DNA of 64,000 nt from Desulfobacteraceae bacterium (GTDB lineage Bacteria; Desulfobacterota; Desulfobacteria; Desulfobacterales; Desulfosarcinaceae): NCBI GenBank assembly GCA_024230435.1, contig JAAERL010000131.1:1-64000 (forward strand), written 5' to 3'. The number at the start of each line of letters is the position of its first letter. Position 1 is the first letter of the stretch. The notes below the pieces were generated by a model. It had not been told where the DNA came from. It made no database searches and saw only the letters and a list, made by a program, of their open reading frames with translations. Positions 51,523-61,905 of the stretch are shown here, piece after piece. The position numbers and the translations under genes were made by a program.

Positions 51523-52980
51523 TTCCCCGCTTCGTTTAAAAATCTTAAATTGAACAATTCGCTTTCAGCCGCATTAAAAAATTAAAAACAAAAAATTCCA
51601 AAAAATGTTTATTTCCCATGCTTTTTCTGCATGGATAAGCGTTTTTCACCTGATAAGGATTCTCGTTATCGTGTTTTTGTGCTTAGCTTCCATCGGCGAA
51701 ATAGGAAAATTTGTTCGACATCAAGGCGTACGAAAAATTTTACCACAGACACATAGTTGATATTCCAAGAATAAAATTTTCGCACGCAACGAAGATATCG
51801 TCAAATTGCCCATTTATCAATGGACAAAACTTAAGGCATGTAAACAACTTTACCACATCTTATGAACTACCGGCCACCATGTTTCACATGGAGACGGTTT
51901 CGTGCTTCACTGAAGGCGGCAAGTACGCCATCTCCACACTCCGGACGGTTCTAAGCCCGGCCTTGATTAAGGCAAGTAATAAAATATTAAGGGCTGCGTT
52001 ATAATCCCGATTGGCTACAAACCCGCAATGAGAACAGTTTTCAAAAGAGCTGTAAAAAAAACTCTGAATAGTCACCATCATCGCAGGTCGGCCATTACCT
52101 TGATTTATAATCAAAATTGAAAACCAAATCAATGATGGTTTGAAGGCACGATAAAATAATTGGCCCTGCGTTGCAATGATCGGGAATAAATGATCGGGGA
52201 CAATTGACGCTCCAATCGCCGCCAACACTGCAAAAACAGCATGCTAAACACGGAATAACAATTTGTTATTTTAGGATAATTTATAATTTTGAGCCAACGA
52301 GCCATACCTGTATCAACAGGCAGTGTTCGAAAAAAAGATTGGCCGTATTTTACAAGCGATTAACCGGCACATAAAAAAAACGGCCAGAGAGTACGCAGCA
52401 AAAAGGCAGGCCATACCTATAAAGCCGGCTGGTTTAAACCCGGTAAAAAATAAGGATTTAGTAAAAAATCCTGGCCCACAGGACCAAGCTTTCGGCTCGC
52501 TGCCCCCAGAGGGGGATTAACCGCAAGCTGTGCAATTCTAACGGTTTATATGGCAGAGCCTGTTGACTTTGACCTATCCCAAAGGACCAGGTTTTCAAAT
52601 TTTTAATAAAATGGACAAGATTACGCCGGATTCGCATTTCGTCTGCAAGGCTCGTCAGCAGATTACATGTTTTATGTATACGGCCTGTTGCCTAAGGCGA
52701 ATGAATTGGGTCAAAAGGCAAGCGATAGTGTACACTTTATCCAACTTACATCCCAACAAGAAGTACTCCAAGATCTAAGAACTTGTTTGGGAATTATTAT
52801 CATTATTGAAGTTTGCAGATGATTTTAATTTGACGTTTTGTCAACTTTTCCATTACAAGGAACTTCAATAGCACTGGCGAGCGGCAACACACCGTGCTTA
52901 TTGAATTTATTCAAGTCTTGCAGCTTAAAAACCGGATAAACTCCGATAGCAAATCAGTCAAAGCGCTAATATAAGCATGA
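51523..52980. other. Decayed intergenic region
   Basis: About 1.5 kb without an intact gene. Only the TnpB remnant at 51884-52042 is recognisable. A basic 65-codon frame at 52323-52520 has no Shine-Dalgarno and no family signal. The stretch looks like an old insertion site between two core gene blocks. Confidence 0.5.
51884..52042 (-). pseudogene. TnpB (IS200/IS605 OrfB) C-terminal remnant
   Basis: The frame reads CSHCGFVANRDYNAALNILL then ALIKAGLRT and PPSVKHETVSM. This is the zinc-ribbon and RuvC-III end of TnpB (CxxCG...RDxNAAxNI), including the catalytic Asp. The catalytic Glu region, RuvC-I and the N-terminal half are gone; upstream sequence in the same frame is unrelated. It is not functional. 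Confidence 0.75.
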
Positions 52981-53047
52981 ACTTTTCGGCTTTGCCGCCG
53001 GAGAACTTAACGTGAATTAGAGCCAAAAACATATTTAAAAAAAAATC

Positions 53048-53070
53048 TTGACAGTTGCCGAACGAACTGT
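53048..53070 (+). promoter_or_regulatory. Probable -35 box and inverted repeat upstream of the ilv leader
   Basis: A perfect TTGACA (53048-53053) stands 65 bases before the leader peptide. The -10 at 17 bases spacing is weak (TAGTGA, 53071-53076). ACAGTT (53051-53056) and AACTGT (53065-53070) form an inverted repeat across the spacer that could be an operator. Confidence 0.4.
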
Positions 53071-53117
53071 TAGTGATTTTTAAAACTAAATTTATATTAA
53101 CGGACCCTAATTATATA

Positions 53118-53201
53118 ATGAATTCCATTATCAACCTCCTTAGCATTATTCTTATTCTCGTTGTCGGCATCATTGCCAGCACTGGGTCAAAGGGGCGATA
53201 A
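53118..53201 (+). CDS. Ile/Leu/Val-rich leader peptide of the ilv operon
   Basis: A 27-residue frame, [20 protein letters not shown] then STGSKGR, ending TAA. Thirteen residues are Ile, Leu or Val, including a stretch IILILVV. It ends 95 bases before the ilvD ATG and just before a terminator. Ribosome stalling at these codons when branched-chain amino acids run low would free the RNA segment that overlaps the stop codon. It has the plan of IlvL of enteric bacteria without clear sequence similarity. The Shine-Dalgarno is weak. Confidence 0.85.
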
Positions 53202-53274
53202 TGGATTAAGAAAAGTTCCCGAAAAAACAACAAAAACCGTTATCAGCCCCAACGCTGGTAACGGTTTTTTTTTT
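53125..53274 (+). promoter_or_regulatory. Transcription attenuator of the ilv operon (segments 1-4)
   Basis: Four segments compete. Segment 1 is CCATTATC (53125-53132), inside the leader peptide. Segment 2 is GATAATGG (53197-53204), over its stop codon. Segment 3 is CCGTTATC (53237-53244). Segment 4 is GGTAACGG (53257-53264). 1:2 pairs perfectly. 2:3 pairs with one G-U and extends with GGGGC/GCCCC around one bulged A (antiterminator). 3:4 is the terminator. A ribosome stalled in the Ile/Leu/Val run covers segment 1 and leaves 2:3 to form. A ribosome at the stop covers segment 2, and the terminator forms. Confidence 0.85.
53236..53274 (+). terminator. Attenuator terminator of the ilv operon
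   Basis: ACCGTTATCAGC (53236-53247) pairs with GCTGGTAACGGT (53254-53265) over 12 bp with one G-U, loop CCCAAC, followed by a run of ten T. It lies 22 bases before ilvD. Confidence 0.93.
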
Positions 53275-53295
53275 GGGCTTTTCCAAGGAGATCGA

Positions 53296-54966
53296 ATGCA
53301 GAGCAATCGAGTAAAAAAAGGCATAGAGCGCGCCCCCCACCGGGCATTATTAAAGGCTTGCGGGCTTACCGGAGAAGAATTAAACCGGCCACTTATCGGC
53401 ATAGCCAATTCGGCAAACACGATTATACCTGGCCATATGCATCTGAACACGATAGCCGAGGCTGTAAAGGCGGGTGTTTACATGGCTGGCGGAACCCCGG
53501 TGGAATTCGGAGTTATCGGTGTTTGCGATGGCATTGCCATGAATCATGAAGGCATGAAGTATTCCTTGGCAAGCCGTGAATTGATTGCCGATTCTGTTGA
53601 GGTCATGGCCAAGGCGCACAGTCTGGATGCCCTCGTACTTGTCCCCAATTGTGATAAAATTGTTCCCGGAATGCTCATGGCCGCTGCCAGATTAGATCTT
53701 CCGGCAATTTTCATCAGCGGCGGTCCAATGCTCGCCGGGCGCCACCCCAACCAGCCTGATGGCAGAAAAATTGATCTGATTACAGTTTTTGAATCAGTCG
53801 GCGCAGTCAAATCCGGTCATATGGATCAGGACCAATTAGAGGCCATTGAAGATGCCGCATGTCCAACTTGCGGTTCCTGCGCAGGTATGTTTACCGCAAA
53901 TTCGATGAACTGCCTGACCGAAGCCATAGGCATGGGGCTGCCAGGCAACGGAACAATTCCGGCGGTTATGTCCGGACGCATCCGATTAGCTAAACAAGCC
54001 GGCATCCAAATCATGTCCCTTCTGTCTAAAGGCATCACTGCCAGAAAGATAATGACCGATCAGGCGTTTTCCAACGCGCTGGCCGTTGATATGGCTCTGG
54101 GTTGCTCCACCAACACAGTCTTGCACTTGGCGGCAATCGCCAGAGAAGCCGATATTTATTTTGATTTAAACATGATTAATCAAATTTCATCTACAACCCC
54201 TCACCTATGCTCATTAAGCCCCGGCGGCCGTTACCACATTGAGGACCTTGATTACGCCGGTGGAATCCAAGCAGTTGTGAAAAGTTTGAGCGAGGCTGAC
54301 CTGATCAACCTGAATTGCATGACAGCCACCGGGGCTGTTGTGGGGGAAAACCTGAAACACGCCCGGATAATTAATAAAGATATTATTCGCCCCATTGAAA
54401 AACCTTATCACCGGCAGGGAGGTTTGGCTGTTCTGTTTGGCAATCTTGCCCCTGACGGATGCGTTGTCAAGCAAAGCGCTGTTCTCGATGAGATGTTATC
54501 GCATACGGGACCTGCCCGGGTTTTTGACAGCGAAGAACAAGCAACGCACGCTATTCTAAACAAACGCATCAAAAGCGGCGATATTGTGGTGATAAGGTAT
54601 GAAGGACCCAAGGGAGGGCCTGGGATGCGGGAAATGTTAACTCCAACTTCTGCAATAGCGGGAATGCAACTGGACGGGCACGTTGCTTTGCTGACGGACG
54701 GCCGTTTTTCAGGAGGCACACGGGGAGCGGCAATCGGTCATATTTCACCGGAAGCGGCTCAGGGCGGCCCCCTTGCCCTGGTCCGGGAAGGGGACAGTAT
54801 CAGCATCGATATTGCCGGCAAAACCATCCATTTGCACGTCGGCGAAGAAGAACTGGTTCAACGCAAAAAAAACTGGCGGCGCCCTGAACTAAAAATAAAA
54901 ACCGGATATATCGCACGTTATGCCGGCGCAGTAAGTTCAGCAGATAAAGGCGCGGTGGTAGATTAG
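53296..54966 (+). CDS. ilvD: Dihydroxy-acid dehydratase
   Basis: IlvD dehydrates the dihydroxy acids that lead to valine and isoleucine, using an Fe-S cluster. The 556 residues have the cluster Cys in [12 protein letters not shown] and [16 protein letters not shown], and the C-terminal [11 protein letters not shown]. The ATG at 53296 follows AAGGAG; longer frames beginning upstream run through the leader terminator and are not translated. It is the first gene of ilvD-B-N-C-cimA-leuA. Confidence 0.97.
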
Positions 54967-55021: not shown

Positions 55022-56710
55022 ATGCAAAGAAGAACAGGCGCACAAATTCTCTTTGACATTATGAAAGACGAAGGCATAGACACAATCTTTGGTTTTCCCG
55101 GAGGCGCTGTCATTGATATCTATGATGAACTTATTAAAAGCGATATTCGCCATATCCTGGTGCGCCATGAACAGGGCGCTGTCCATATGGCTGACGGATA
55201 CGCTAGGGCAACGGGAAAAGTCGGCGTTTGTCTGGTCACTTCCGGCCCCGGCGCCACAAACACCGTTACCGGTATTGCTACCGCCCATTGCGACTCTATT
55301 CCCCTGGTGATTATCACCGGTCAGGTATCTTCCCACCTGATCGGAAATGATGCTTTTCAAGAGGTTGACATCGTAGGTATTACACGCCCCTGCACAAAAC
55401 ATAATTATCTGGTTAATAGTATTGATGAGCTGCCCAGGATAATTAAAGAAGCCTTTCACATTGCCCGCAGCGGCAGGCCCGGACCGGTATTGATCGATAT
55501 TCCCAAAAATATCCAGATTGCAAAAACCGAATATGAACCCATGGGCAATATCAAAATAAAATCCTATGCTCCCAATTACTATCCAAACGGCAGACAGGTG
55601 CAAAAAGCCGCCGAGCTGCTGAAACAAGCCCGGCGCCCGGTCATTTTCTGTGGAGGCGGCGTTATCTTATCCGATGCACATGAAGAATTGACTCAACTGG
55701 CGCGGAACTTGAACATACCCGTGGCGGCCTCGCTGATGGGATTAGGCGGCTTTCCCGGTTCAGATCCTCTTTGGCTCGGCATGTTGGGAATGCATGGCAC
55801 TTACAGGGCGAATATGGCCATTTCAAATTGCGATGTCATGATCGCTGCCGGAGTCCGGTTTGACGACAGGGTTACCGGGAAAACGGAGTGCTTTGCTTCC
55901 CAGGCAAAAATTATTCATATCGACATTGATCCGACGTCCATCCGAAAAAACGTACCGGTAGCCGTGCCTATTGTGGGTGATTGCAAAATAAGCCTGCAGG
56001 ACCTGAATTGTAAGATCCGTGAACACTGTATTGCCAAGCATAACAACAAACATGAGCAATGGATCAAGCAAATCGAAAAATGGAAAAACGAACATAAACT
56101 GGCTTTTCACCAGGAACAAACCATAAAGCCTCAATATGTTGTGGAAAAACTTTATGAGTTAACTAAGGGCCAGGCCATTATCACAACAGAGGTAGGCCAA
56201 AACCAGATGTGGGCTGCTCAATTCTATCACTATGATTACCCGCACCATTTTATCTCCTCCGGAGGCTTGGGAACCATGGGGTTTGGTTTGCCGGCCGCTA
56301 TCGGCGCTCAAATCGCTTTTCCTGATAAACTGGTTATCGATATCGCAGGAGACGGCAGTATTCAAATGAATATTCAGGAATTGGCAACCGCCATTCAATA
56401 CAACCTGCCTGTTAAAGTCGTTATTTTAAACAATCGTTTCTTAGGAATGGTTCGCCAATGGCAGCAACTGTTTTATAACAAAAAATACGCATGCACCTGC
56501 ATGGACCATACACCCGACTTTGTCAAAATAGCACACGCATACGGAGCGACAGGTTTACGCGCCGAGTACCCGGAACAAGTAGAACACGTGTTATCCAAAG
56601 GACTGGAAACGCCGGGAGCCGTGGTCATGGATTTTACGGTTGAACCCGAAGAGTGCGTTTATCCGATGGTTCCCGCCGGAGCGCCGATTACTGAAATGCT
56701 TCTGGTTTAA
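55022..56710 (+). CDS. ilvB: Acetolactate synthase large subunit
   Basis: The thiamine-diphosphate enzyme makes acetolactate or acetohydroxybutyrate. The 562 residues show the catalytic Glu region VRHEQGAVHMADGYARATGK, SGPGATN, the FAD-binding middle domain, and the ThDP/Mg motif GDGSIQMNIQEL with a following NNRFLGMVRQW. The small subunit gene follows after 74 bases, so this is the feedback-regulated biosynthetic enzyme, not the catabolic type. Confidence 0.97.
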   Translation: MQRRTGAQILFDIMKDEGIDTIFGFPGGAVIDIYDELIKSDIRHILVRHEQGAVHMADGYARATGKVGVCLVTSGPGATNTVTGIATAHCDSIPLVIITGQVSSHLIGNDAFQEVDIVGITRPCTKHNYLVNSIDELPRIIKEAFHIARSGRPGPVLIDIPKNIQIAKTEYEPMGNIKIKSYAPNYYPNGRQVQKAAELLKQARRPVIFCGGGVILSDAHEELTQLARNLNIPVAASLMGLGGFPGSDPLWLGMLGMHGTYRANMAISNCDVMIAAGVRFDDRVTGKTECFASQAKIIHIDIDPTSIRKNVPVAVPIVGDCKISLQDLNCKIREHCIAKHNNKHEQWIKQIEKWKNEHKLAFHQEQTIKPQYVVEKLYELTKGQAIITTEVGQNQMWAAQFYHYDYPHHFISSGGLGTMGFGLPAAIGAQIAFPDKLVIDIAGDGSIQMNIQELATAIQYNLPVKVVILNNRFLGMVRQWQQLFYNKKYACTCMDHTPDFVKIAHAYGATGLRAEYPEQVEHVLSKGLETPGAVVMDFTVEPEECVYPMVPAGAPITEMLLV

Positions 56711-56784: not shown

Positions 56785-57282
56785 ATGAAAGCAGAAAAAC
56801 ACACTTTGACCATGCTTGTAGACAATGAACCCGGAGTTTTATCCCGTGTTGCAGGTTTGTTCAGTGGCCGCGGCTTTAACATAGACAGCCTGTGCGTAGC
56901 GGAAACCATGGACCCCAAGGTTTCAAGGATCACCGTTGTTACCCAGGCTAATGAGATCTTGCTTGAACAGATTGAAAAACAATTACGCAAGTTGATCAAT
57001 GTTATCAAACTACGCGACATGACCGGCGATAGAGCGATTCGCAGGGAACTTTGTCTTATTTGCGTAAATGCCCAATCATCTGAAAACAGAGATGAAATTA
57101 ACCGATTGGTTAATTTTTTCCGGGCCAGCGTAATCGATGTCGGACCTGAATACTACATTATCGAAACGGTGGGAAGCCAGGAGAAAATATCAGCCTTTAT
57201 CAGCTTGTTAAAACCTCTCGGCATAAAAAAAATCGCACGCACCGGCGCCATTGCGCTTTATCGCGAACAGGGCAAGGGGTAA
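56785..57282 (+). CDS. ilvN: Acetolactate synthase regulatory (small) subunit
   Basis: The 165 residues hold an N-terminal ACT domain, LTMLVDNEPGVLSRVAGLFS with GRGFNIDSL, and the C-terminal ALS_ss domain. The ACT domain binds valine and passes feedback inhibition to IlvB. It is the ilvH/ilvN long form of about 160 residues. Confidence 0.96.
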   Translation: MKAEKHTLTMLVDNEPGVLSRVAGLFSGRGFNIDSLCVAETMDPKVSRITVVTQANEILLEQIEKQLRKLINVIKLRDMTGDRAIRRELCLICVNAQSSENRDEINRLVNFFRASVIDVGPEYYIIETVGSQEKISAFISLLKPLGIKKIARTGAIALYREQGKG

Positions 57283-57380: not shown

Positions 57381-58439
57381 ATGGCTCAGATCGATTTTGG
57401 CGGTGTTGTTGAAGAAGTTATCACGTCAGATGAATTTACATTGGAAAAGGCGCGCGAGGTACTTTCCGATGAAATTGTGGCCGTATTGGGATACGGCGTT
57501 CAGGGGCCGGGCCAAGCCCTTAACATGCGAGACAACGGCATCAATGTCATTGTCGGACAGCGTGAAGGTGGAAAATCCTGGCAGCGGGCAATCGATGACG
57601 GTTTCGAACCGGGCAAGACTTTATTTGCCCTCGAAGAAGCCGCCCGCAAGGCCACGATCATACAATTTTTGCTATCCGATGCAGGGCAAGTGGATGCCTG
57701 GCCGAAAATCAAACCATACCTTGAACCAGGCAACGCCCTTTATTTTTCACACGGCTTCGGTGTTGTCTACCGTGACCAGACGGGCATTATCCCGCCTGAT
57801 GATGTAGATGTTTTTTTGGTGGCGCCAAAAGGCTCCGGCGCCACCGTAAGAACGAATTTCCTTGAAGGAAGCGGTATCAATTCCAGTTTTGCAATCTTTC
57901 AGGATTATTCCGGCCGGGCCAAACAGCGCACCATAGCGATTGGCATCGCCATCGGGTCAGGCTACTTGTTTCCAACTACTTTTGAAAATGAGGTCTATAG
58001 CGATCTTACCGGTGAACGCGGTGTTCTAATGGGATGTCTGGCCGGTGTCATGGAGGCCCAATACACGTTATTACGCAAGCATGGTCATAGCCCCAGTGAA
58101 GCGTTCAATGAAACAGTGGAAGAGCTTACCCAGAGCCTTATTCGGCTTGTAGCCCAGAACGGAATGGACTGGATGTTCGCCAATTGCAGCACAACGGCTC
58201 AACGCGGCGCCCTCGATTGGGCTCCCAAGTTCCGCGATGCCGTAAAACCCGTCTTTGACGATCTATACGAAAGCGTTCTTTCGGGGGCTGAAACTCGCCG
58301 CACGATAGATGCAAACAGCGCACCCGACTACCGTGAAAAGCTTAACAAAGAACTTTCACAAATCGGCGATTCGGAGATGTGGCTCGCAGGACGGGCAGTC
58401 AGAAGCCTGCGCCCTGAAAACAGAACAAAAAAGCGATAG
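57381..58439 (+). CDS. ilvC: Ketol-acid reductoisomerase
   Basis: IlvC isomerises and reduces acetolactate with NAD(P)H and Mg. The N-terminal Rossmann domain has VAVLGYGVQGPGQALNMRDNG in pieces. The C-terminal helical domain carries the Mg ligands near EVYSDLTGERGVLMG and EAFNETVEELTQ. The 352 residues fit the short class I type, although VAPKGSGATVR and the GxGxxGxG context GYGVQGPGQ are nearer the variant found in Bacteroidetes and some delta-proteobacteria than E. coli. AAGGAG precedes the ATG. Confidence 0.95.
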   Translation: MAQIDFGGVVEEVITSDEFTLEKAREVLSDEIVAVLGYGVQGPGQALNMRDNGINVIVGQREGGKSWQRAIDDGFEPGKTLFALEEAARKATIIQFLLSDAGQVDAWPKIKPYLEPGNALYFSHGFGVVYRDQTGIIPPDDVDVFLVAPKGSGATVRTNFLEGSGINSSFAIFQDYSGRAKQRTIAIGIAIGSGYLFPTTFENEVYSDLTGERGVLMGCLAGVMEAQYTLLRKHGHSPSEAFNETVEELTQSLIRLVAQNGMDWMFANCSTTAQRGALDWAPKFRDAVKPVFDDLYESVLSGAETRRTIDANSAPDYREKLNKELSQIGDSEMWLAGRAVRSLRPENRTKKR

Positions 58440-58506: not shown

Positions 58507-58575
58507 ACTACTTTTTAACGAAATTATCCAAAAAAAGTGCCTGCGGATAAAACGGCACTAGAAAGCCTGAAAATA

Positions 58576-60177
58576 ATGCAACCCGTCCTTATATATGACA
58601 CGACTTTACGTGATGGCACCCAGGGAGAAAACATAAATTTTTCCGCCGATGAGAAAATACGCATTGCAAAAAAATTGGATGAACTGGGAATTCATTATAT
58701 TGAGGGGGGCTGGCCCGGAGCGAATATCCGCGATCGGAGATTTTATGAACTGGCTCAGAAAGAAGTATTTTCATCTGCTCGTATAACAGCTTTCGGATCA
58801 ACCCGAAAACCAAATACCAAAGCATCTGAGGACCCTAATCTCAAAGCTCTAATTTCCTGCAAGGCGCCCGCAGTTGCTATAGTGGGAAAATCGTGGCCGC
58901 TGCATATCGAACAAATTATGGCCAACACCCTTGATGAAAACCTGGCCATGATCAGCGATAGCATCAAGCTGTTCAAAAAGCTTGATCGGGAAGTAATTTA
59001 CGATGCGGAACACTTTTTCGATGCATACCAGGACAATCAGGATTATGCGATCAAGACCTTGCTGGCAGCCATAGAAAGCGGAGCAGATGCCGTTGTATTG
59101 TGCGATACCAACGGAGGATCTTTGCCCTCTGATATTCAAGCCGCAGTTGCAAGAGTGCATGATCTTTTTCACAAACAGGCAATATCTGTAACATTGGGCA
59201 TTCATACCCATAATGACAGTGGTATGGCTGTTGCGGGCTCCATTGCTGCGATGCAAGCAGGGGTCACCATGGTCCAGGGCACTATTAACGGGTATGGCGA
59301 AAGATGCGGTAATGCCGATTTGACCAGTCTTATTCCCATTATCAGCATTAAAATGAACCGCGATTGTATTCCACGCGATAATCTGCCCCATTTGAGCGCC
59401 TTGTCCCGTTTTGTCAGCGAAACGGCAAATATGATTCCACTCAACTCGCGGCCTTTTGTAGGTAAAAGCGCCTTTGCCCATAAAGGCGGCTTGCATGTCA
59501 ATGCCATCATGAAACAGCCCCGGGCATACGAGCATATCGAACCGTCAAAAGTCGGCAACCGGCGCCGGGTTTTGGTTTCGGACATGTCGGGTAAAAGCAA
59601 TGTGGCCTTCAAAGCAAAGGAATTGGGTGTCAAATTAGATTCCGCAGGAAAGGACTCTACTGCAATTGTTAGCGAAATCAAAAATATGGAAGATAAAGGG
59701 TATCAATTTGATGTGGCGGATGGTTCACTTAAAATCTTACTGCAAAAATTCACTGAACAATTCACTGCCCACTTCGAGCTTGAATCCTTTCGGGTAACTA
59801 TTGAAAAAGACAGGGATCAGCCTTGCTCGGCCCACGCCACCATAAAAATAGCTGTTGACGGCAACCATGAAATTACAGCCGCTGAAGGCAACGGCCCGGT
59901 AAGTGCGCTGGATAATGCCCTGAGAAAAGCCCTTGGTAAATTTTATCCGGATCTGGATTCCATGCGTCTGGTGGACTTTAAAGTCCGCGTTATCGACGGC
60001 AGGGATGGCACGGCGGCTCGGGTACGAGTTCTACTCGAATCCAGAGATCAAACCGACATCTGGACCACCATCGGCGTATCCGAAGATGTTATCGAAGCGA
60101 GCTGGCATGCTTTAGCAGACAGCTTCCAATTCAAACTGGCCAAGGTTAAAGATCAGCAAAAAATCATATCGCCTTAG
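58576..60177 (+). CDS. cimA: Citramalate synthase
   Basis: CimA joins pyruvate and acetyl-CoA to citramalate, the first step of threonine-independent isoleucine synthesis. The 533 residues have the HMG-CoA lyase-type barrel with YDTTLRDGTQGENINFS, the family-specific EGGWPGANIRDRRFY, and HTHNDSGMAVAGS with metal His residues. A C-terminal LeuA-dimer regulatory domain follows (about 395-525). The ATG at 58576 is preferred; a GTG at 58537 would add 13 residues. No ilvA is in the window, which fits this route. Confidence 0.93.
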   Translation: MQPVLIYDTTLRDGTQGENINFSADEKIRIAKKLDELGIHYIEGGWPGANIRDRRFYELAQKEVFSSARITAFGSTRKPNTKASEDPNLKALISCKAPAVAIVGKSWPLHIEQIMANTLDENLAMISDSIKLFKKLDREVIYDAEHFFDAYQDNQDYAIKTLLAAIESGADAVVLCDTNGGSLPSDIQAAVARVHDLFHKQAISVTLGIHTHNDSGMAVAGSIAAMQAGVTMVQGTINGYGERCGNADLTSLIPIISIKMNRDCIPRDNLPHLSALSRFVSETANMIPLNSRPFVGKSAFAHKGGLHVNAIMKQPRAYEHIEPSKVGNRRRVLVSDMSGKSNVAFKAKELGVKLDSAGKDSTAIVSEIKNMEDKGYQFDVADGSLKILLQKFTEQFTAHFELESFRVTIEKDRDQPCSAHATIKIAVDGNHEITAAEGNGPVSALDNALRKALGKFYPDLDSMRLVDFKVRVIDGRDGTAARVRVLLESRDQTDIWTTIGVSEDVIEASWHALADSFQFKLAKVKDQQKIISP

Positions 60178-60363: not shown

Positions 60364-61905
60364 ATGGAATCCGAAAAAATAATATTTTTTGACACTACGC
60401 TACGCGATGGAGAACAATCACCAGGCGCCAGCATGAACAAGGCTGAAAAACTCAGATTGGCTGTTCAGCTAGAAAAACTGGGAGTGGACGTGCTTGAAGC
60501 GGGCTTCCCGGCAGCTTCCCAAGGAGATTTTGAAGCTGTCCAACAGATTGCCAACCGTCTGAAAAACACTGAGGTTGCCGCCCTGGCCCGGGCGAATAAA
60601 AACGACATCAACCGCGCCTGGGATGCGATCAAACATGCGGTCAAACCACGCATTCACACGTTCATCGCCACTTCTGACATCCACATGAAATATAAGTTGA
60701 ATATGAGCCGCGATGAGGTCTTGTCCGCTACAATCGAAGCCGTGAGGCATGCCAAATCCTTAACGCAAAGTGTGGAATTTTCTGCCGAAGACGGCTCCCG
60801 CAGCGAGTGGGACTTTCTTTGCAAAGTATTTGAAACCGCCATTGCCGCAGGCGCCACCACGGTAAATCTTCCCGATACCGTGGGATACGCAATACCCGGC
60901 GAATTCGCCGAAATGGTACGGTATGTGATCAAACACACGCCCAATATCAACCAGGCCATTTTAAGCGTTCATTGCCACAACGATTTGGGGCTGGCGACAG
61001 CCAATACCATTGCGGCAATTCATGCAGGGGCCCGCCAGGCTGAAGTCACCATCAACGGTATTGGTGAACGCGCAGGAAACACATCGTTAGAAGAAGTTGT
61101 CATGACTGTGCATACCCGCAGTAATTATCTGCCATATACTTGCCAGGTCAAAACTGAACACCTCTACCCCACCAGCCGGCTGGTCAGTATGATTACCGGA
61201 ATCATGGTGCAGCCCAACAAGGCCATAGTGGGCGCAAACGCCTTTGCCCATGAAGCCGGTATCCACCAGGATGGTATGCTGAAAAATCCCATGACGTATG
61301 AAATTATGCGCCCGGAAACCATTGGCCTTGCAAAAAATCAACTGGTACTGGGAAAGCATTCCGGAAGACACGCTTTGCGTGAGCATCTTAAAAAGATAGG
61401 CTATGATCTTTCGAGCGAAGAACTCAATGTTGTGTTTGAAAAATTCAAAAATCTAGCCGACAAGAAAAAACATGTTATGGATGAAGACCTGGAAGCCATT
61501 GTAACCGAGGGTGTATTACGTACGACAGACATATTCGAACTGGATTATCTGCATGTCAGTGCCGGCACCACGGTCATGCCCATGGCCAGCGTACAGTTGA
61601 CAATCAACAAACGTCCGGTAAAAGGCGCTGACTACGGTAACGGTCCCATCGACGCATGTTTTAACGCCATTTCCAAACTAACCAATACAGAATCCGAATT
61701 GCTGCGGTTTTCCATCAGCGCTCTGACCGGCGGAACCGATGCCCAGGGAGAAGTAACGGTGCGCCTCAAGGAAAACGGCTTGATCGCATTAGGCCGGGGG
61801 TCCGACCCTGACATTATCACGGCCAGTGCACGGGCTTTCATAAACGGCTTGAACAGGCTGGAATACCTAAAAGCCAACCCGGTGGAAACGCCTCAGGAAA
61901 TTTAA
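60364..61905 (+). CDS. leuA: 2-isopropylmalate synthase
   Basis: LeuA condenses acetyl-CoA with 2-oxoisovalerate, the first leucine step. The 513 residues have IFFDTTLRDGEQSPGASM, metal motif SVHCHNDLGLATANT, and the C-terminal LeuA dimer domain that binds leucine for feedback. The length and motifs distinguish it from the citramalate synthase just upstream, which is a diverged relative. AAGGAG precedes the ATG. leuB, leuC and leuD are not in the window. Confidence 0.96.
   Translation: MESEKIIFFDTTLRDGEQSPGASMNKAEKLRLAVQLEKLGVDVLEAGFPAASQGDFEAVQQIANRLKNTEVAALARANKNDINRAWDAIKHAVKPRIHTFIATSDIHMKYKLNMSRDEVLSATIEAVRHAKSLTQSVEFSAEDGSRSEWDFLCKVFETAIAAGATTVNLPDTVGYAIPGEFAEMVRYVIKHTPNINQAILSVHCHNDLGLATANTIAAIHAGARQAEVTINGIGERAGNTSLEEVVMTVHTRSNYLPYTCQVKTEHLYPTSRLVSMITGIMVQPNKAIVGANAFAHEAGIHQDGMLKNPMTYEIMRPETIGLAKNQLVLGKHSGRHALREHLKKIGYDLSSEELNVVFEKFKNLADKKKHVMDEDLEAIVTEGVLRTTDIFELDYLHVSAGTTVMPMASVQLTINKRPVKGADYGNGPIDACFNAISKLTNTESELLRFSISALTGGTDAQGEVTVRLKENGLIALGRGSDPDIITASARAFINGLNRLEYLKANPVETPQEI

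Follow-up and report, generated by a model that had tools for sequence, protein, structure and literature searches.

A very probable isoleucine, leucine and valine attenuator ahead of ilvD-B-N-C-cimA-leuA, with a core conserved across the Desulfobacterales

How does a desulfobacterial cell match transcription of its isoleucine, leucine and valine genes to the supply of the three amino acids? The question is raised by a short region in front of ilvD in a Desulfobacteraceae bacterium (GenBank assembly GCA_024230435.1), within a window of 64,000 nucleotides, the whole stretch analysed here (contig JAAERL010000131.1, positions 1 to 64,000). An initial annotation, made from the letters of the DNA, had read 53118-53274 as a four-segment attenuator of the trp/ilv type. 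Folding, compensatory changes in relatives, the leader frame and the identity of the operon all support that reading, and with high confidence we regard the region as a ribosome-mediated attenuator of transcription, which reads the supply of isoleucine, leucine and valine jointly via charged tRNA. The features of the region and of the genes behind it are as follows.

53048-53076, + strand: likely promoter by consensus match, with TTGACA at 53048-53053, a spacer of 17 nt and the extended -10 element TGTTAGTGA at 53068-53076
53118-53201, + strand: leader peptide ORF of 27 codons, 13 of them for Ile, Leu or Val, with a frame kept in relatives
53125-53136, + strand: segment 1, with CCATTATC at 53125-53132, carrying the in-frame Ile-Ile codons ATT ATC
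53157-53186, + strand: hairpin between segments 1 and 2, conserved and covarying
53192-53204, + strand: segment 2, with GATAATGG at 53197-53204, partner of segment 1 or segment 3
53237-53250, + strand: segment 3, with CCGTTATC at 53237-53244, partner of segment 2 (antiterminator) or segment 4 (terminator)
53254-53264, + strand: segment 4, with GGTAACGG at 53257-53264, the 3' strand of the terminator
53232-53274, + strand: intrinsic terminator, stem 53232-53269, ten T at 53265-53274
53296-54966, + strand: ilvD, dihydroxy-acid dehydratase (TIGR00110, 782.6 bits)
55022-56710, + strand: ilvB, acetolactate synthase large subunit (TIGR00118, 851 bits)
56785-57282, + strand: ilvN, acetolactate synthase small subunit (TIGR00119, 198.8 bits)
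57381-58439, + strand: ilvC, ketol-acid reductoisomerase (TIGR00465, 310 bits)
58537-60177, + strand: cimA, citramalate synthase (TIGR00977, 685.9 bits, cut-off 450)
60364-61905, + strand: leuA, 2-isopropylmalate synthase (TIGR00973, 717.9 bits)

The NCBIfam models, from which gene identities were taken, confirmed all six genes in the order originally named, including the citramalate synthase. The ilvD gene starts at the ATG at 53296, preceded by AAGGA; the raw list of ORFs places its start falsely at 53161, within the leader. The gaps among the six genes measure 55-186 nt, and no second leader-like hairpin with a T-run was found between them on the + strand; both observations fit a single operon without proving it. 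Upstream of the attenuator, on the opposite strand, a short ORF (51884-52228, - strand) weakly matches the Cas12f1-like TNB domain (PF07282) and is probably the remnant of a TnpB-type gene.

All four segments were found where the initial annotation had put them, and the region folds far more stably than its shuffled versions (-57.7 versus -33.4 kcal/mol, z -6.1). The antiterminator pairs 53192-53204 (GGGGC-GATAATGG) with 53237-53250 (CCGTTATC-A-GCCCC); this upheld the pairing claimed at the outset but extended its length from 8 pairs to 13 pairs with one bulged A. Similarly, the ten T of the terminator were confirmed, whereas its stem, previously given as 12 bp, comprises 14-16 pairs and takes in five of the ten T. 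One position ranks the three helices: the T of GATAATGG pairs as A-U in 1:2 and as a retained G-U wobble in 2:3, and 3:4 has G-C there.

Judged from the promoter-like elements, the transcription start would be close to 53083, with the leader ATG about 35 nt further on. A TTGACA hexamer matching at five or more of six positions lies upstream of 109 of 109 leaders, against 47.5 expected from shuffles, and TGnTA about 20 nt after the start of TTGACA is enriched across the leaders. An alternative promoter, TTTATA-17-TATAAT (53091-53119), was rejected, as its start would fall inside the leader and the conserved TTGACA lies upstream instead; its TATAAT (53114-53119), which runs into the leader ATG, is probably a spurious match.

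Translation of 53118-53201 gives the 27-codon leader with the 13 Ile/Leu/Val codons that had been claimed, namely seven Ile, four Leu and two Val, and no ORF this rich in the three residues arose in 1,000 dinucleotide shuffles of 53000-53295. These codons span leader codons 4-19, codon 19 being the last, and the TAA stop (53199-53201) lies within GATAATGG, in agreement with the reported overlap of segment 2 and the stop codon. The leaders aligned from relatives were chosen partly by their Ile/Leu/Val richness, which is therefore no independent evidence, whereas frame and stop position are less affected by this choice. In every one of the 110 leaders, ATTATC of segment 1 lies in the reading frame of the peptide, and in 107 the stop codon is located inside segment 2 or no more than 2 nt beyond its end. 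Taken modulo 3, the spacing from segment 1 to segment 2 keeps the frame (87/22/1), its two main classes being two ways to have the stop codon inside segment 2 or directly behind it; from segment 2 to segment 3 the spacing does not keep it (42/35/33). The leaders have weak Shine-Dalgarno sequences, most of them matching at 3-4 of 6 positions.

Covariation was measured on the 110 Desulfobacterales leaders against 500 shuffles and against slid versions. Taken together, helix 1:2, the middle hairpin and helix 3:4 contain 204 two-sided changes versus 90 in shuffles, and their score of 0.221 (0.153 in shuffles, at most 0.08 in slid versions) was reached in 0 of 500 shuffles, a count that is not a probability because shuffles, unlike slid versions, do not preserve relatedness. 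With the same reading of shuffle counts, helix 1:2 alone outscores all 500 shuffles and, by a wide margin, the slid versions; so does the middle hairpin alone, with 71% of cells paired and 76 two-sided changes versus 39 shuffled. Helix 3:4 is paired in 96.5% of cells over the 110 sequences. The competing helix 2:3 is paired in 92%, with 25 two-sided changes versus 6.4 and 0 of 500 shuffles reaching its score. RNAalifold recovered only part of 3:4 from the full alignment, and the named structures were counted instead. Thus, 1:2, 2:3 and 3:4 all show compensatory changes above both the shuffled and the slid controls.

The position of the ribosome decides, in folding, which of these helices can form. 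The model lets the ribosome cover about 30 nt and ends the transcript just before segment 4. With the leader of the window covered at different positions, any A-site position from codon 1 to codon 21 allows 2:3, and none from codon 22 to codon 28 does, a sharp switch after codon 21. Over the 110 leaders, Ile/Leu/Val codons are permissive for 2:3 by 1526 to 101 (94%), compared with 933 to 569 (62%) for other codons. Placed at the stop codon, the ribosome abolishes 2:3 in 110 of 110. When no ribosome is present and segment 4 has yet to be made, the model ranks 2:3 higher than 1:2 in 86 of 110, although the 1:2 pairs covary. In the full-length transcript at equilibrium, 3:4 is preferred for every ribosome position; the switch must therefore be kinetic.

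From this arrangement we infer how termination, stalling and the response to each amino acid would be coupled. RNA synthesis would begin near the predicted start and a ribosome would translate the leader. Should the cell run short of charged tRNA for Ile, Leu or Val, the ribosome would stall at one of codons 4-19, leaving segment 2 free to pair with segment 3 before segment 4 exists; no terminator would form, and ilvD-B-N-C-cimA-leuA would be transcribed together. Were all three amino acids plentiful, the ribosome would reach the stop codon and cover segment 2, segments 3 and 4 would pair, and the polymerase would be expected to stop in the T-run.

The closest named relative by IlvD is Desulfatitalea alkaliphila, and on this basis the genome was assigned to the Desulfobacterales. 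Among 194 genomes of the order, ilvD was located in 179, of which 129 had their upstream DNA read. Strong attenuator matches adjoin ilvD in 111 of the 129 (104 in alignment A1 plus seven found by the model); of the remaining 18, 11 have a strong match elsewhere, two hold weak remnants (L138 and L164) and five, which are 67-84% complete, have none. The 25 loci away from ilvD, in 24 genomes, comprise 16 before ilvB, seven before cimA and two too close to a contig end for the next gene to be read, and the attenuator thus goes with whichever gene heads the operon, not with ilvD as such. The head gene varies within the order, yet, where readable, it always belongs to the Ile/Leu/Val pathway. The sequences of the four segments, initially taken to be peculiar to this attenuator, turned out to be common to the whole order; their consensus over the alignment is CCATTATCAACC for segment 1, GGGTTGATAATGG for segment 2, CCGTTATCAGCCC for segment 3 and GCTGATAACGG for segment 4.

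The leader frame is retained together with the operon in relatives. In two genomes of the order (L138 and L164), the switch is damaged and ilvD is present, pointing to occasional loss: in L138 the leader is truncated and the terminator kept, and the L164 copy is interrupted by inserted DNA bearing a long inverted repeat, which parts the leader from the terminator and removes segment 2. At another locus (L120), the stretch separating ilvD from an intact attenuator holds CTGAACCCTGAACCT-type repeats and an inverted repeat. One genome (G018) carries two copies, L331 and L320, one before ilvB and one before cimA.

With a covariance model (R1) built from the alignment, we searched 297 genomes of the phylum. 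Outside the order, its 20 best loci comprise 15 upstream of cimA, two upstream of leuA, one upstream of a gene for a shikimate kinase-like protein, and two (L236 and L241) that look spurious. The shikimate kinase-linked locus (L234, minus strand, some 160 nt ahead of the gene), with leader MFTYQSVQDYYFFYYTWRGTGLPMD and a strong terminator, is likely an aromatic amino-acid attenuator. The cimA leaders of some families contain almost only Ile (e.g., MITIIIRPIIIIEGIILVSKT and MKKDIRAIIIINIIISFCIGGRGAV), and those of others Ile, Leu and Val; near Ile-only leaders with a similar terminator core stand before cimA in other classes (L247, L248, L249, L254, L259, L221 and L238), as candidates for an attenuator of cimA that responds to isoleucine alone. 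Most of the 60 genomes approached via cimA were without such a leader before this gene. Ile/Leu/Val-rich ORFs also occur upstream of ilvD in records of Caldithrix, CSSED10-310, Calditrichia, Neomarinimicrobiota and Bacteroidetes; a terminator accompanies one of them (L106), and the scan found no simple terminator at the other five (L099, L101, L103, L105 and L108). Tentatively, and with confidence somewhat below even, we suggest that one inherited core moved among ilvD, ilvB, cimA and leuA across the phylum and was retuned via its leader codons, to near Ile-only before cimA; the terminator sequence would be fixed by the Ile-Ile codons (ATT ATC) of segment 1, which segments 2, 3 and 4 mirror. 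The shared core could reflect either common descent or convergence forced by the Ile codons in segment 1.

Could the same region serve another purpose? With its ILILVVGII stretch the leader resembles a short transmembrane helix, and relatives throughout the order have conserved it, as would be expected of a small hydrophobic membrane peptide with a function of its own, next to a terminator that merely limits read-through into ilvD. Its conservation, however, tracks RNA pairing and the position of the stop codon in segment 2, and its amino-acid content follows the controlled gene, as in the almost Ile-only cimA leader MKKDIRAIIIINIIISFCIGGRGAV of L249; since the varying head gene within the order always comes from the pathway as well, we consider a membrane peptide very unlikely. 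T-boxes likewise use terminators and antiterminators as their output, and the core sequences are strongly conserved, which is what a T-box, a riboswitch (a leader that binds tRNA or a ligand) or a protein-controlled terminator with an incidental ORF would predict. Yet a search of this region against the leader, T-box and riboswitch families of Rfam 15 gave no match at the gathering score and nothing credible at a permissive threshold, the reading frame is maintained from segment 1 to segment 2 but not beyond, and codons plus alternative pairs explain nearly all conserved bases, making control of this kind highly improbable. That an ordinary terminator lies by chance behind an Ile/Leu/Val-rich ORF is a reading to which we give almost no credence: terminator-like sites over the whole operon are no commoner than in shuffles, which would suit it, but the shuffles never yielded such an ORF and the whole arrangement recurs, with compensatory changes, in more than 110 genomes.

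If the region is a ribosome-mediated attenuator, textbook leader-peptide attenuation is likely the standard control of Ile/Leu/Val synthesis in Desulfobacterales. The covariance model can annotate such leaders and correct gene starts, as for ilvD (53161 to 53296). Near Ile-only leaders before cimA are a testable indication that the citramalate synthase encoded behind them works for isoleucine synthesis, and natural variation in head gene, amino-acid mix and broken copies makes the rules of the switch testable.

Leader-peptide attenuators responding to Ile, Leu and Val govern the enterobacterial ilvGMEDA, ilvBN and leuABCD operons. The Desulfobacterales attenuator resembles them in its clustered control codons, alternative antiterminator and terminator hairpins, a stop codon whose ribosome covers segment 2 and a multi-amino-acid leader ahead of structural genes. 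It differs in heading ilvD-B-N-C-cimA-leuA, where the isoleucine precursor comes from citramalate, in matching no Rfam family and in core sequences kept across an order. No report of attenuators in delta-proteobacteria or with citramalate synthase was found in the open-access literature; the 2004 FEMS survey of proteobacteria (Vitreschak et al.), outside that scope, could contain one, and the Desulfobacterales attenuator is apparently undescribed so far. The initial annotation placed such attenuation chiefly in gamma-proteobacteria, but Ile/Leu/Val leaders have also been described elsewhere, e.g., in Actinobacteria (PMC1262725, PMC10272879). There, ilvB leader-peptide candidates with a terminator were reported, their mode being called unclear (PMC1262725), and the paper on the Corynebacterium ilvB-II uORF motif, surveying additional motifs, argues that leader-peptide attenuation is common for ilvB genes (PMC10272879). 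These leaders share with ours a short Ile/Leu/Val ORF and a terminator before an ilv operon, with attenuation by leader translation proposed (PMC1262725, PMC10272879); they are usually 15-17 codons long (PMC10272879), versus 24-33 after Met here, and have another head gene and other RNA sequences. The ilvB-OMG motif of various phyla likewise has a uORF upstream of ilvB rich in branched-chain codons; compared by description, its leaders are also rich in Thr (PMC10272879), which makes up 2% of residues in the Desulfobacterales leaders. The ilv-leu operon of Staphylococcus aureus is reported to use peptide-based attenuation in the same pathway too (PMC5794164), with a leucine-rich attenuator peptide and in a different phylum. 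Set against these systems, the mechanism proposed here is of the known trp/ilv type, of which the Desulfobacterales attenuator is an order-conserved member.
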